Positions 3,687 to 18,461 of a stretch of DNA of 23,361 bases are shown in pieces. The translations under genes and the position numbers were made by a program. Every line of letters starts with the position of its first letter. Positions within the stretch are counted from its first letter, which is position 1. Source of the DNA: a virus; the IMG/VR virus record IMGVR_UViG_3300035115_000020, positions 1 to 23,361 of that record, one strand, 5' to 3'. Below the pieces are notes generated by a model. It did no database searches. It saw nothing but the letters and a program-made list of their open reading frames with translations, and had not been told where the DNA came from.

Positions 3687-4901
3687 TCAGTTCTCGGTGA
3701 TGTCAGCGAACAGCGCGTTGGCGTTCCGCTGCTTCACACCGATCTCCCAGTACTTGTACAGCCGGGCCTCGTACTGGTCGAAGCCCGAGATCCGCGACCA
3801 CATCGAGCCGTCCGTGTCGTCCCAACTCCAGTCCTCCTCCTGGAAGACGGTGAGGCTGGGCTCGTTGACGAACCACATCTTGCCGGTCGGCGCGTCGGGG
3901 TCATCGATGACCGGGATCTCCTGGCCGTGGTTGAACGCGAGACCGGAGAAGCCGCCCGCGAACTCCTTGGTGTCGGTGTACCGGCGCTGCTGGGTGAGCA
4001 GGTTGAAGTACGCCCGGCGAACACCGAGGGAGGCGAAGATGACGGTCGGCCGAGCGCCACCCGCCTTCCGCACCCGGTCCACGATGGCGATCATGGCCGA
4101 CTCGGACAGCGCGCGGGACGTGCCGTTGTTGGAGTCCACGACGGAGGCCCACACCGGCTGGGTGGCGGGGTCCACGTTGTAGAGCGCGCCGGTCGCCTTG
4201 ACGATCGAGGACAGGCCGTTGGGCTCCAGCACGGTGCCCGCGAAGTTGCCGGTCCGGACCACCAGGTCACCGGTCGCGTCCGAGGCGATGTCCGCGCCGG
4301 AGTAGACGAAGGTGCCCGCCGGGGCGGTGGTGACGGTGATCGAGGTGATGGTCCGGTTCGAGCCACGCACCGTGCCGCCGGGGGACACGATGTCGATGAC
4401 CTGGCCGACCTCCAGGTACTGCACGTCGTTGACGGCCGAGGTGTTCGCGGTGGCCTGGGACGCAGCGGACAGGGTGGCCAGGGCGCCCGTGCCGTCACCG
4501 TAGAAGATGCGGGCGGTGTCCTTGGCCACGTCGTTCTTGAGGCCGTCCATCTCGTCCGACATCACCGAGGCGAACGCCTGGGCGTTGGTCTTGAGCAGGC
4601 GCATCGACTGGCCCGACAGCAGCAGCATGCCGTAGCCGTACTTGAGGCCGATCTGCACCGAGGCGTAGCCCTGGTTGCCACCGGTCGGCAGTGCGCCACC
4701 CTCAGCGCGGTAGCCGAGGCCGGGGTTACGGGACACGCGGATCGGGAAGCGGACGTACTTGCCTCCGGTGTCCGACGACACGCCGTCGCTGGACTTCATG
4801 ACCCGGCGCAGGCCGATGACTTCCTTGTTGAGTTGGCCGACCAACTGCGGGAGGTAGACCTCCTTCGCGATGTTGGTCGCGGTAACGAGAGTGGCGGGCA
4901 T
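3687..4901 (-). CDS. Major capsid protein (HK97-fold type)
   Basis: The 404-residue protein starts MPATLVTATNIAKEVYLPQL, with AAGGAG 7 nt before the ATG. An N-terminal helical arm is followed by core segments such as KYVRFPIRVSRNPGLGYR, FASVMSDEMDGLKNDVAKDTARIFYGDG, then a beta-rich central segment at residues 161-216, and C-terminal core pieces (PTVIFASLGVRRAYFNLL, WSRISGFDQYEARLYKYWEIGV, read in parts). It lies directly after the scaffold-like gene and before small head proteins, the standard place for the major capsid gene. The segment at residues 161-216 recurs in a separate gene at 6260-6760. Fold assignment rests on pattern and context. Confidence 0.85.
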   Translation of the reverse strand: MPATLVTATNIAKEVYLPQLVGQLNKEVIGLRRVMKSSDGVSSDTGGKYVRFPIRVSRNPGLGYRAEGGALPTGGNQGYASVQIGLKYGYGMLLLSGQSMRLLKTNAQAFASVMSDEMDGLKNDVAKDTARIFYGDGTGALATLSAASQATANTSAVNDVQYLEVGQVIDIVSPGGTVRGSNRTITSITVTTAPAGTFVYSGADIASDATGDLVVRTGNFAGTVLEPNGLSSIVKATGALYNVDPATQPVWASVVDSNNGTSRALSESAMIAIVDRVRKAGGARPTVIFASLGVRRAYFNLLTQQRRYTDTKEFAGGFSGLAFNHGQEIPVIDDPDAPTGKMWFVNEPSLTVFQEEDWSWDDTDGSMWSRISGFDQYEARLYKYWEIGVKQRNANALFADITEN

Positions 4902-15399: not shown

Positions 15400-15582
15400 A
15401 TGAGGAAGACGAAGTGGGCCAAGATCGACTCTGGCAACAAGCGTCGGAACACGAGCGACCGTGCCGAAGTCGAGTTGCAGTGCCCCGCTGGGCACACCGG
15501 GCGTTTCAGCACCAAGGTGGAGAACGCCCAGGCCACCCGGAACTGGGACCAGGAGCACTCCACGCATCGCAAGAACGACTGA
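15400..15582 (+). CDS. Small basic protein, first gene of the plus-strand operon
   Basis: A 60-residue protein starts at ATG 15400 with GAGAGG about 8 nt upstream. It is Lys/Arg-rich at the start (MRKTKWAKIDSGNKRRN) and contains ELQCPAGHTGRF, where Cys, His and Gly could be part of a metal site or a beta hairpin. It ends His/Lys-rich. No family recognised. First position after an early-type promoter suggests high early expression. Confidence 0.7.
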   Translation: MRKTKWAKIDSGNKRRNTSDRAEVELQCPAGHTGRFSTKVENAQATRNWDQEHSTHRKND

Positions 15583-15587
15583 TCACC

Positions 15588-15725
15588 ATGGTCAAGTGGA
15601 AGTCGTGCTACCTCTGCGGCGGTACCAAGAAGATGCCGAGTGGCAGGAAAGACGAGGACGGCAACCCGATCATGGTGACCTGCTCGGCGTGCCACGGCAC
15701 CGGCAAGGTGGTGGACACCGAATGA
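15588..15725 (+). CDS. Tiny zinc-ribbon protein with DnaJ-type cysteine repeats
   Basis: The 45-residue protein starts at ATG 15588, 5 nt after the previous stop. It holds two motifs, CYLCGGTKKM (residues 7-16) and CSACHGTGKV, resembling the CxxCxGxG repeats of the DnaJ zinc finger. The four cysteines could bind one zinc ion, so the whole protein may be a minimal zinc ribbon. Phages often carry such pieces without J domains; partner and role are unknown. It ends in an ATGA overlap. Confidence 0.7.
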   Translation: MVKWKSCYLCGGTKKMPSGRKDEDGNPIMVTCSACHGTGKVVDTE

Positions 15726-15952
15726 GCCACCCGGGCATGTTCAACTACGAGCCTTCCGAGTACGACACCGACGAGATGCAGACCTTCCACGTGGGCTACT
15801 GGTGCCCGCGCGGTGGTGGGCACGCCGACCTCTTCAATGAGGCAGACGGCGGCATGTGCGGGTCGAAGGGCTGGCCCCTGTACCTGGAGTGCCCGAAAAG
15901 CGAAGTCAACGAACTCCCCGAGTGGATCAAGGAGCGGCGCTATGACGGCTGA
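15722..15952 (+). CDS. Small hypothetical protein with spaced Cys/His residues
   Basis: The 76-residue protein starts at ATG 15722, overlapping the previous stop. It is acidic and aromatic, with FNYEPSEYDTDEMQTFHVGYWCPRGGGH in overlapping parts, then GGMCGSKGW and LECPKSEVNELPEWIKERR. Three cysteines with His residues might bind zinc. No family recognised. The C-terminus ends in a charged helix and the stop lies inside the start region of the next gene. Confidence 0.65.
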   Translation: MSHPGMFNYEPSEYDTDEMQTFHVGYWCPRGGGHADLFNEADGGMCGSKGWPLYLECPKSEVNELPEWIKERRYDG

Positions 15953-16166
15953 GTGGCCCATCGATCGGCGGCTGGGGATGAACCTGTCGTTCAAGGGCGC
16001 TACCGCACTGTCGGAGCTTCTGGCGATGGGCGAGGGCACCAAGACCGACATCGTGAACGGCGCCCTGGAGCGGATGCTCTACATCACCAAGGCCCTGGAC
16101 TCGGGTGCCAAGCTCTACCTGGAGCGGCCCGGCGTGGAGGGACTGGAGAACGTGGTGTTCCTATGA
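15942..16166 (+). CDS. Ribbon-helix-helix DNA-binding protein
   Basis: The 74-residue protein fits the RHH (Arc/MetJ/CopG) pattern: a short strand LGMNLSF (residues 11-17), helix A GATALSELLAMG (19-30), a turn with EGTKTDI, and helix B TDIVNGALERMLYITKAL (35-52). The end, SGAKLYLERPGVEGLENVVFL read in two parts, matches the 'GA.L.L..P.GE...V.FL' tail of actinobacterial and actinophage RHH proteins. RHH dimers insert the paired strands into the major groove. It ends ATGA-overlapped with the DUF397 gene, so the two are translationally coupled. It could repress early genes or act on host promoters. Confidence 0.75.
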   Translation: MTAEWPIDRRLGMNLSFKGATALSELLAMGEGTKTDIVNGALERMLYITKALDSGAKLYLERPGVEGLENVVFL

Positions 16167-16405
16167 CCGGGTGGCACAAGAGCACATTCAGTGCGCAAGG
16201 CAACTGTGTGGAGGTGAGACACGTGGACCCGTGGAAGAAGTCGAGCTTCTCGCACGGCAATGGTCAGTGTGTGGAGGCCCAGCACGTCAACAAGGTCTGG
16301 CAGGTCCGCAACACCAAGGACCGTTGGGGCACCGTCGTGCAGTTCACCGAGGCTGAGTGGTCCGCGTTCATCGCGGGGGTGAAGGCCGGGGAGTTCGATG
16401 AGTGA
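16163..16405 (+). CDS. DUF397-family protein with duplicated N-terminal motif
   Basis: The 80-residue protein has two copies of the DUF397 signature: WHKSTFSAQGNCVEVRHV (residues 4-21) and WKKSSFSHGNGQCVEAQHV (24-42). The standard second half follows: WQVRNTKD, then VVQFTEAEWSAFIAGVKAGEFD (in parts), matching the family's 'VRDSKD...F....W..F..GVKAGEFD' order. DUF397 proteins abound in actinomycete genomes, usually next to XRE regulators of development and secondary metabolism. Here the neighbour is an RHH protein instead. The doubled N-terminal motif is unusual. It may mimic a host DUF397 partner or form a phage-specific pair with the RHH protein. Confidence 0.85.
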   Translation: MTGWHKSTFSAQGNCVEVRHVDPWKKSSFSHGNGQCVEAQHVNKVWQVRNTKDRWGTVVQFTEAEWSAFIAGVKAGEFDE

Positions 16406-16958
16406 ACCCCTCTCCTGGGACGAGCGCGTGCAGATGTTCCTCGATGAACTGAACGACATCGAGGCCACCTGGAAGATCAGCTTGGTGGATCACTCGTTCG
16501 AGCCGGACCTCAACCTGGTGGACGAGATCGGCGCCAACACCGCCGTACTGCACGTTTCGGATGGGGTGTGGACCCGATGGATTCCACCGAAGCGCTCGGC
16601 AGAACCACCGAGCCAACTAGAGCTTCTGTTCCAGAGCCTGTACAACCCGGCGCTCACCGAGCAGATGTCTCGCGAGGCTGCCATGCTGCACCGCACACTG
16701 GAGGACATCGACCGCGATGAGGCATCCCTTCACGAGCAGTACGGGACCGTCACCTTCGCCATCCACCGTGACGCTCACCTCGGACATCGCGAAGACGACC
16801 GGCCAAGAACTTCTGAACCGGGCGTTCAACCCGCCCCCGGTGACGCTGGAGATCGCGTTCACCAACGGGACGATCGCCAAGTTGGTGGTCAAGCGCGCGG
16901 ACATGAGGGCAGCCTGGATGCGGCTGGCGGGGATCGTGCAGATCCTGGACCTGGATGA
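16398..16958 (+). CDS. Hypothetical protein with a long out-of-frame overlap
   Basis: The 186-residue frame starts at ATG 16398, 8 nt inside the DUF397 gene. Residues 1-120 are protein-like: WDERVQMFLDELNDIEATWKI, DEIGANTAVLHVSDGVWTRWI and a long helix EQMSREAAMLHRTLEDIDRDE (each in parts). After about residue 125 the sequence becomes Arg/Gly/Asp/Pro-rich and looks like a shadow of the next gene's frame. The real protein may be read through as given, or a frameshift near 16740-16770 may join it to the next frame. No family recognised. Confidence 0.6.
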   Translation: MSEPLSWDERVQMFLDELNDIEATWKISLVDHSFEPDLNLVDEIGANTAVLHVSDGVWTRWIPPKRSAEPPSQLELLFQSLYNPALTEQMSREAAMLHRTLEDIDRDEASLHEQYGTVTFAIHRDAHLGHREDDRPRTSEPGVQPAPGDAGDRVHQRDDRQVGGQARGHEGSLDAAGGDRADPGPG

Positions 16959-17103
16959 GCCGCTGGTCCCGGACACCAACAAGGTGGACGAGTACGAGTT
17001 GAACACCCTGGGGCTGGTGGTGGGCGCCCACGACCTGATCTTCTCCCGAGACCAGATCGCGCGCGTCACCCTGCTCGACGGATACATCACCTGGGTGTGC
17101 TGA
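16768..17103 (+). CDS. Hypothetical alpha/beta protein
   Basis: About 111 residues from GTG 16768; an ATG at 16717 is possible but gives a Ser/Pro-rich leader. No ribosome site is seen for either start. It contains a beta-alpha pattern: VTLEIAFTNGTIAKLVVKRADM, a helix RAAWMRLAGIVQIL, then LVVGAHDLIFSRDQIARVTLLDGYITWV (each in parts). Codon use is clearly coding. The upstream gene overlaps about 190 nt in another frame, so this may be the second half of a frameshifted product. No family recognised. Confidence 0.6.
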   Translation: MTLTSDIAKTTGQELLNRAFNPPPVTLEIAFTNGTIAKLVVKRADMRAAWMRLAGIVQILDLDEPLVPDTNKVDEYELNTLGLVVGAHDLIFSRDQIARVTLLDGYITWVC

Positions 17104-17105
17104 CA

Positions 17106-17366
17106 ATGGACGAGGTGGCCTGGTTCCGGCACCGGGGAGTCCGCGTCCGCTGGCGCGACCTACGCGGCTACACATCGGGCGACGTGATGTGGGACGGCAA
17201 CATGTCCGGCAACTACGCCGACCACTGCCGGGTCGCAGTGACCTGGGACGAGACCTCCGTTCCGGAGGGCGTTGGCCCACGCCGGAACTGGGTACCGGTC
17301 AAGGAGCTTGTGCGGCTGCCGCCGAGCAGCCGGCCTGGGATAGAGGATGAGATGCGTGATGCGTGA
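17106..17366 (+). CDS. Small SH3-like or beta-barrel hypothetical protein
   Basis: The protein has about 86 residues from ATG 17106; GTG 17097 is an alternative that overlaps the preceding gene. It has strand-rich segments, GVRVRWRDLRGYTSGDVMW and DHCRVAVTWDETSV, then WVPVKELVRLP (in parts), suggestive of a small beta barrel such as an SH3/KOW-type fold. It has two Trp-rich strands. The stop overlaps the next start region. No family recognised. Confidence 0.6.
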   Translation: MDEVAWFRHRGVRVRWRDLRGYTSGDVMWDGNMSGNYADHCRVAVTWDETSVPEGVGPRRNWVPVKELVRLPPSSRPGIEDEMRDA

Positions 17367-17547
17367 CTTCGAGTTGCATGGGGACGAGTTCTGGCCGCTG
17401 ATCAGCTTCGGCCTGGCCACACCCAACACGTCCAAGCATGACCGCTTCCCGCTGGACATCACCGACGAGGAGATCGCGGAGTACCGGCAGGCGAGCAGCG
17501 TGTTCTTCGCCATGCAAGAGCGGCTGGACCGAGTATGGAGCGCCTAG
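17359..17547 (+). CDS. Small acidic hypothetical protein
   Basis: The protein has 62 residues from ATG 17359, which overlaps the preceding stop; ATG 17347 is in frame but lies too close to its purine-rich leader. It contains FELHGDEFWPLISFG and DITDEEIAEYRQASSVFFAMQERLDRV (in parts), the latter a likely amphipathic helix. It has no cysteines. The size and the acidic, DNA-mimic-like charge pattern are seen in anti-host or anti-defence proteins, but no family is recognised. Confidence 0.65.
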   Translation: MRDFELHGDEFWPLISFGLATPNTSKHDRFPLDITDEEIAEYRQASSVFFAMQERLDRVWSA

Positions 17548-17765
17548 ACCCGTTCCAGCTTGACCTGCTGTGCGCCATCGTGCGCCTGGAGCAGATCGAG
17601 CAGGAGTTGGGCGAGAACGTGCCGGATGGCATCGGCGGGCACCTGCTGGAGCGGGTGTTCACCTGTGACGTGCCCCGGCTGCGGTCGTACCTGTCGGACG
17701 AGGCGCTGGCCTTCGAGGCAGAACTGGAGGAAGAGGATGAGCGACAACGACAAGGACGAGGCTGA
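17535..17765 (+). CDS. Small helical acidic protein
   Basis: The 76-residue protein begins at ATG 17535, overlapping the upstream gene by 13 nt. It is helical: FQLDLLCAIVRLEQIEQELGE, then GGHLLERVFTCDVPRLRSYL, and a strongly acidic tail AFEAELEEEDERQRQGRG (each in parts). The C-terminal 29 nt overlap the next gene. No family recognised. The helical acidic build fits a protein-protein interaction role. Confidence 0.65.
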   Translation: MERLDPFQLDLLCAIVRLEQIEQELGENVPDGIGGHLLERVFTCDVPRLRSYLSDEALAFEAELEEEDERQRQGRG

Positions 17766-17919
17766 CCAGTGGACCGCCAACGTGTCCCTGACCCTGATGC
17801 TGCTGCACAACCGGATCACCAAGCTGGAGACGCAGGTCGCGGAACTCACCAGGTTCATGCGTCTCGCGGTACAGGAGAAGCTCCGCGCTGAGGCGCGCGC
17901 GCTGGGGATAGACCTGTGA
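17737..17919 (+). CDS. Small coiled-coil protein
   Basis: The 60-residue protein starts at ATG 17737 with GGAGG 6 nt upstream, inside the end of the previous gene. After a hydrophilic start (MSDNDKDEADQW) it is one amphipathic helix: LMLLHNRITKLETQVAELTRFM continuing to QEKLRAEARAL (in parts), with clear heptad spacing of Leu, Ile and Val. It probably forms a dimeric coiled coil. No family recognised. Confidence 0.7.
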   Translation: MSDNDKDEADQWTANVSLTLMLLHNRITKLETQVAELTRFMRLAVQEKLRAEARALGIDL

Positions 17920-18122
17920 CCGCCCTGCCATTCGGGTACGAGCGCCGATACAGCACGCCGAAGGCGACGGTGGCTCATGCCGCAGCGGTGTACCGTCCGG
18001 ACGCCACTGCCCGCTGTGGGTACCGACCGCACCTGGCTGGGTGGTACGGCACCGGCTCCCAGGAGGAGTACGAGAAGGCAGCCTCGCTGCCGCTGTGCAA
18101 GCTCTGCGCGAGGAACCTCTGA
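17916..18122 (+). CDS. Small Cys-containing protein
   Basis: The 68-residue protein starts at GTG 17916 in a GTGA overlap. The middle, AHAAAVYRPDATARCGYRPHLAGWYG in parts, and the end, LPLCKLCARNL, contribute three cysteines, two as CKLC. With His residues, a small zinc site is possible. The stop shares bases with the next ATG (TGATG). No family recognised. Confidence 0.65.
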   Translation: MTALPFGYERRYSTPKATVAHAAAVYRPDATARCGYRPHLAGWYGTGSQEEYEKAASLPLCKLCARNL

Positions 18123-18286
18123 TGGGCTGGGACGAGCAGACCCTCACGATCAGTGCGCTGGTGTCCCGGCACAACAGCGAACGGGACCGCCGGGACGACC
18201 ATCTCTGGGAGGAGTTGCAGGGACGCATCAGGACCATCGTGAACGAGGAGAAGTACGAGTCGATCTCCGCGATGCTCCATGGCTGA
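18122..18286 (+). CDS. Small hydrophilic helical protein
   Basis: The 54-residue protein starts at ATG 18122, overlapping the previous stop as TGATG. It is mostly charged helix: MGWDEQTLTISALVSRHNSE, then RDRRDDHLWEELQGRIRTIV and KYESISAMLHG. No cysteines or membrane segment. Its reading frame is too short to judge by composition alone, but coupling on both sides supports it. No family recognised. Confidence 0.6.
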   Translation: MGWDEQTLTISALVSRHNSERDRRDDHLWEELQGRIRTIVNEEKYESISAMLHG

Positions 18287-18461
18287 GCCGGTCGTCCGCT
18301 GCTGGGTGTGGGACTCCACCACCGGGATGGGCGTGCTGATCGTGGACAACAGACGCAAGAAGCAGACGAAGCCCGAGAAGGCGGCAACGAAGCGCCGAGG
18401 AGACAACGCCCAGACGATCACGTACGAGCAGTGGCTGCGCAGGCAGGGTCGTGGGCGCTAG
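18279..18461 (+). CDS. Small basic protein, last gene of the plus-strand operon
   Basis: The 60-residue protein starts at ATG 18279 with an 8-nt overlap. A hydrophobic strand-like start (PVVRCWVWDSTTGMGVLIVD) is followed by a highly basic stretch NRRKKQTKPEKAATKRRG and a helix ITYEQWLRRQGRGR. The basic half could bind nucleic acid. It ends with TAG, immediately followed by a weak inverted repeat GGGTGC/GCACCC (18461-18489) that may stop transcription. No family recognised. Confidence 0.6.
   Translation: MAEPVVRCWVWDSTTGMGVLIVDNRRKKQTKPEKAATKRRGDNAQTITYEQWLRRQGRGR

Follow-up and report, generated by a model that had tools for sequence, protein, structure and literature searches.

Two small genes that overlap at an ATGA stop/start junction in a viral record raise the question of whether they form a regulator-partner system, or whether one of them, a DUF397 (BldB-family) gene, acts on proteins of the host while the other is a mere neighbor. 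The first-pass annotation described a ribbon-helix-helix (RHH) protein translationally coupled to a DUF397 protein with a duplicated N-terminal signature, and proposed either a phage regulator-partner pair or a mimic of host XRE-DUF397 circuits. It had placed both reading frames and their overlap correctly (Table 1). The window, meaning the whole stretch of DNA analyzed here, is a viral record of 23,361 bases. Its minus strand encodes the terminase, portal, and major capsid proteins, and the two genes of interest lie inside a plus-strand row of small genes. Megablast of the window against a phage collection gave no match. Its closest phage relatives, L035 and L036, have terminases 75-76% identical to its own. 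The major capsid protein (3687-4901, minus strand) shares 43-44% identity with Microbacterium phage Shocker and a Caudoviricetes record, which is consistent with an actinobacterial host.

Table 1. Plus-strand features of the locus, in positions of the window.
Feature	Position	Strand	Evidence
Row of small overlapping phage genes (start approximate)	15400..18461	+	ORFs and third-position GC
74-aa ribbon-helix-helix-like protein, probable small dimeric DNA-binder	15942..16166	+	Family profile
ATGA stop/start overlap	16163..16166	+	Sequence
80-aa DUF397 (BldB-family) protein with duplicated N-terminal beta-hairpin	16163..16405	+	PF04149, phrog_10815, AF2 model
First (extra) hairpin copy, residues 3-21	16169..16225	+	Own DUF397 match, profile 2-23
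Complete DUF397 domain, residues 24-74	16232..16384	+	Profile positions 3-55 of 55

Judged by profile searches, the 80-aa protein is certainly a member of DUF397, as the first-pass annotation had named it. It matches PF04149 with 80.8 bits in two stretches (curated cut-off 24) and phrog_10815 with 84.7 bits. The AF2 model has a mean pLDDT of 82, with 91-97 per ten-residue block across residues 41-80, and contains the four strands and terminal helix expected of the family: a short first core strand (residues 25-26), strands at 37-42, 45-50, and 59-61, and a helix at 63-74. The CxE motif of strand 2, defined for DUF397 in an earlier survey (PMC7159879), is present as C36-V-E38 in the core and as C15-V-E17 in the extra copy. 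The RDS motif expected towards the end of strand 3 is absent; residues 49-51 read RNT, retaining the arginine, and many other phage DUF397 members carry RNS or RDS. This substitution leaves the profile-based family assignment not in doubt. A fold search of the model against the PDB returned nothing under E 0.9, and a sequence search for a solved DUF397 relative found none. The best sequence match, the ABC-transporter binding protein 2yln (E 0.014), was dismissed as chance.

The two stretches of the PF04149 match reflect a tandem N-terminal motif. Scored separately, residues 1-22 reach 27 bits and residues 21-80 reach 62.3 bits (cut-off 24). When the N-terminal 22 residues were shuffled, the best of 8,110 scored versions reached 11.7 bits, against 36.7 bits for the real hairpin; as none attained the real score, the motif is not a product of chance. 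In the AF2 model the extra hairpin comprises strands 3-6 and 17-20, with a low pLDDT of about 60. The protein does not hold two whole domains: a single complete DUF397 domain follows an additional copy of the first beta-hairpin. The duplication noted earlier stands at the level of a hairpin, and such motifs have already been published in host proteins: they occur in four of the 15 DUF397 proteins of S. coelicolor (SCO2514, SCO4177, SCO4300, and SCO6128; PMC10364602, Table 2). In a family search across five actinomycete genomes, one Streptomyces genome had at least five DUF397 genes whose products carry between two and four hairpins. Given these genes and the four published cases, tandem motifs are not specific to phages, and extra hairpins are ordinary for the family. 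The one in the window is a variation typical of the family that may alter the contact surface. A regular-expression count of zero tandem cases in 80 bacterial loci was set aside as unreliable owing to frame choice and selection.

Repeated hairpins also occur in seven other viral DUF397 proteins, with two or three copies each. The protein of locus L003 (5989-6492; also sampled as L209) begins with three hairpins, and its long C-terminal extension contains repeats of a degenerate hairpin and of a GVKDGEF tail; the protein of L023 likewise has three hairpins.

The genomic setting of DUF397 genes differs between viruses and bacteria. An XRE-DUF5753 gene lies within 1.4 kb of 71 of 80 bacterial DUF397 loci, but within 1.6 kb of only 18 of 64 viral loci (L209-L272), being absent from the other 46 (Fisher p about 4e-14); both samples were drawn largely via the C-terminal GVKAGEF motif, so that these fractions are indicative rather than unbiased. 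All seven viral loci with repeated hairpins fall among the 46 without XRE. Many viral contigs are fragments, and the orphan state rests on metagenomic contigs. In searches of whole records, DUF5753 (PF19054) is absent from the window; of 22 other viral records that have no adjacent XRE gene, 21 lack it throughout. A terminase is encoded in 17 of these 23 records, the window included, which indicates that most of them are phages. The neighbors of XRE-less viral DUF397 genes are varied phage genes, and no recurring partner was found beside them, no family appearing in more than two of 61 neighbors. The DUF397 tree is too short for firm resolution; within it, orphans are scattered (11 changes), and its well-supported branches do not contradict a single orphan origin.

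Several known systems invite comparison. The XRE-DUF397 pairs of actinomycetes (Scr1/Scr2 and the WhiJ-BldB paralogues) encode a DUF397 protein of the same size, downstream in a two-gene order, and the tandem N-terminal motif also appears among them in the four S. coelicolor proteins named above. In the window, by contrast, no XRE-DUF5753 gene is present, and the upstream gene is RHH-like and not a conserved neighbor. DUF397 genes without an adjoining HTH gene also occur in VMAP-ternary conflict systems, and HTH-independent copies were reported in the same eLife 2020 survey that defined the CxE motif (PMC7159879); the gene studied here is phage-borne, and a VMAP-type neighbor is not seen. Phage-encoded DUF397 proteins are found too in the Streptomyces and Saccharomonospora phages Picard, Darolandstone, Success, Samy, and PIS 136, that of Samy being annotated to the same PHROG, phrog_10815. 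In these phages, unlike the window, an HTH/DNA-binding gene directly adjoins DUF397, as it does in Austintatious, the sixth isolated phage inspected.

The reading favored here, to which we assign a probability of about 0.5, is that the gene encodes an orphan BldB-type protein of phage that enters BldB/WhiJ assemblies of the host, the small RHH protein next to it being a regulator in its own right. The gene would be a host-derived, XRE-less member of the BldB/DUF397 family in an actinomycete phage, and its product would act as a stand-alone protein by oligomerizing with BldB-type proteins of the host. Such oligomerization could alter the activity of WhiJ-type XRE-DUF5753 regulators during infection. 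That a partnerless phage DUF397 protein would most likely work by joining host assemblies is suggested by three lines of published work. BldB hetero-oligomerizes with most of its paralogues, and its loss unleashes WhiJ9 (XRE)-dependent expression of a sporulation inhibitor (PMC10294661). Many DUF397 proteins change development or antibiotic output when overexpressed, and are not clearly toxic (PMC10364602). In mycobacteriophage TM4, a phage WhiB acts as a dominant-negative of the host regulator (PMC8612146). The latter offers a model of how a phage copy of an actinobacterial developmental regulator can interfere with the host's own, though WhiB is an unrelated protein family, and what is shown for WhiB is proposed for the phage DUF397 protein. 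Counting against the favored reading are the RNT in place of RDS and the HTH/DNA-binding neighbor in all isolated phages inspected.

A broader version is more tentative and, on present evidence, rather doubtful: actinomycete phages may repeatedly carry partnerless DUF397 decoys that join host BldB/WhiJ (XRE-DUF5753) assemblies, restraining or redirecting development and antibiotic production during infection, while the RHH-like protein would add a second, independent regulatory layer. The mimicry of host XRE-DUF397 circuits raised in the first-pass annotation thus survives as a hypothesis for DUF397 alone, and for phage orphans generally, without an RHH partner.

The strongest rival, which we consider unlikely, holds that the DUF397 gene no longer has a function and is left over, as a passenger or in decay, from an XRE-DUF397 immunity module that the phage once carried. 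Isolated phages keep HTH-DUF397 pairs near integrase or repressor genes, which makes loss of the XRE gene a short step, and the scatter of orphan copies in the weakly resolved tree would fit such losses. The state of the gene argues against decay: its core motifs CVE and GVKAGEF are kept, its reading frame is intact, and its third-position GC is 0.85. Moreover, orphans recur, at 46 of the 64 viral loci.

The 74-aa product of the upstream gene is harder to place. No direct match was obtained in Pfam, PHROG, NCBIfam, or the PDB; the Pfam RHH families gave nothing at E 10, and the single sequence found no match in the viral, phage, and genome collections. Homologues surfaced only via whole-genome searches and a family profile: L195, another phage record (the same record as the DUF397 locus L005), L199, a viral contig, and a few Streptomycetales genomes. 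The seven-member alignment shows a strand with an R-x-x-x-x-L pattern, followed by two predicted helices that meet at a K-(T/A)-D/T-x-(I/V)-N motif. When the family profile is compared with the PDB, the first four matches are of RHH type, namely the designed protein 2mdv, CopG (1b01 and 2cpg), and ParG (1p94). These matches are colinear across strand-helix-helix, though weak (E 0.007-0.26) and below significance singly, and the protein of the window adds a C-terminal tail of about 20 residues to the CopG and ParG plan. Two family members match RHH_1 weakly and one matches PSK_trans_fac (Rv0623-like), the relatives' best values being E 0.006-0.007. An AF2 model from the single sequence (pLDDT 57) was too poor for a fold search. 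The profile evidence is thus consistent but weak, and by our own estimate the protein is very probably RHH, as first proposed. It may well bind DNA, probably as a dimeric repressor or a copy-control-type DNA binder. In L195, a second small RHH/ParD-like ORF (2170-2358; Pfam ParD E 0.026) lies about 0.5 kb from the RHH homologue.

Gene spacing in the row bears on whether the RHH-like and DUF397 genes belong together. Its junctions overlap by 4, 11, 4, 8, 7, 20, 13, and 8 nt; there are two gaps, and two further junctions have unsure gene models. Almost every junction overlaps, so the ATGA between the RHH-like and DUF397 genes is not special; with overlaps the norm of the row, it is no sign of a particular pair. 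Other features of the row were noted. At 16398-17103, two plus-strand ORFs share 242 nt, and third-position GC moves to another frame at about 16740-16770; the probable cause is a frameshift within one gene, through misassembly or a true change of frame, or else a wrongly called start. A small plus-strand gene (15588-15725), the third one upstream of DUF397, encodes two CxxC-G knots (CYLCGG ... CSACHGTG) that resemble DnaJ zinc-finger repeats.

The regulator-partner pair of the first-pass annotation, in which RHH has taken the place of XRE and binds DNA while DUF397 modulates it, appears improbable. In its favor, the ATGA overlap and the order of DNA-binder then DUF397 match XRE-DUF397 modules, and elsewhere XRE and RHH proteins do replace each other beside one and the same toxin family, for example GNAT (PMC2701414). 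The pairing nevertheless is a single instance. With the family profile, no RHH of this kind turns up near the other viral DUF397 loci (about 64), nor in the remaining loci sampled, bacterial DUF397 loci included. The only other record with both genes, G008, has the RHH homologue at 48.3-48.5 kb and DUF397 at 19.0 kb, some 29 kb apart. Homologues of the RHH-like gene elsewhere stand alone, without an overlapping partner gene downstream, and none of the papers searched mentions an RHH-DUF397 pair. Conservation in related phages, which the annotation had named as a test, does not hold either: in the covered stretches of L035 and L036 neither protein has a convincing match, and their whole records contain no RHH. 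A DUF397-like match in L035 (E 0.036) was too weak to be counted. What stands of the non-XRE partner described at first is a record without XRE-DUF5753 and a probable RHH gene adjacent to DUF397; its role as a replacement partner does not. The RHH-like gene upstream, with its ATGA overlap, could be read as the DNA-binding gene of an XRE-DUF397-type module, but its pairing with DUF397 is not conserved.

A type II toxin-antitoxin system, with RHH as antitoxin and DUF397 as toxin, is very improbable: the protein sizes and gene order resemble RHH-antitoxin operons, and an earlier prediction cast DUF397 as the toxin to XRE antitoxins (PMC2701414), yet overexpression of 14 S. coelicolor DUF397 proteins caused no clear toxicity (PMC10364602), no catalytic motif is recognized, and the two genes are seen together once rather than as a conserved module. 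The adjacency of the two genes is most likely a chance neighborhood in a tightly packed gene row. The RHH-like gene would share a transcript with DUF397 by position and serve as a separate small regulator rather than as its functional partner. The pairing itself, being not conserved, would matter little.

The interest of the locus lies with the DUF397 gene. DUF397/BldB proteins are abundant in actinomycetes, the median being 19 in genomes that contain bldB (PMC10294661), and how they act is not settled. If stand-alone DUF397 proteins do serve phages against BldB/WhiJ circuits of the host, the phage gene would provide a handle on what DUF397 proteins bind, and a further regulator would join WhiB and Lsr2 among the few developmental genes carried by phages.
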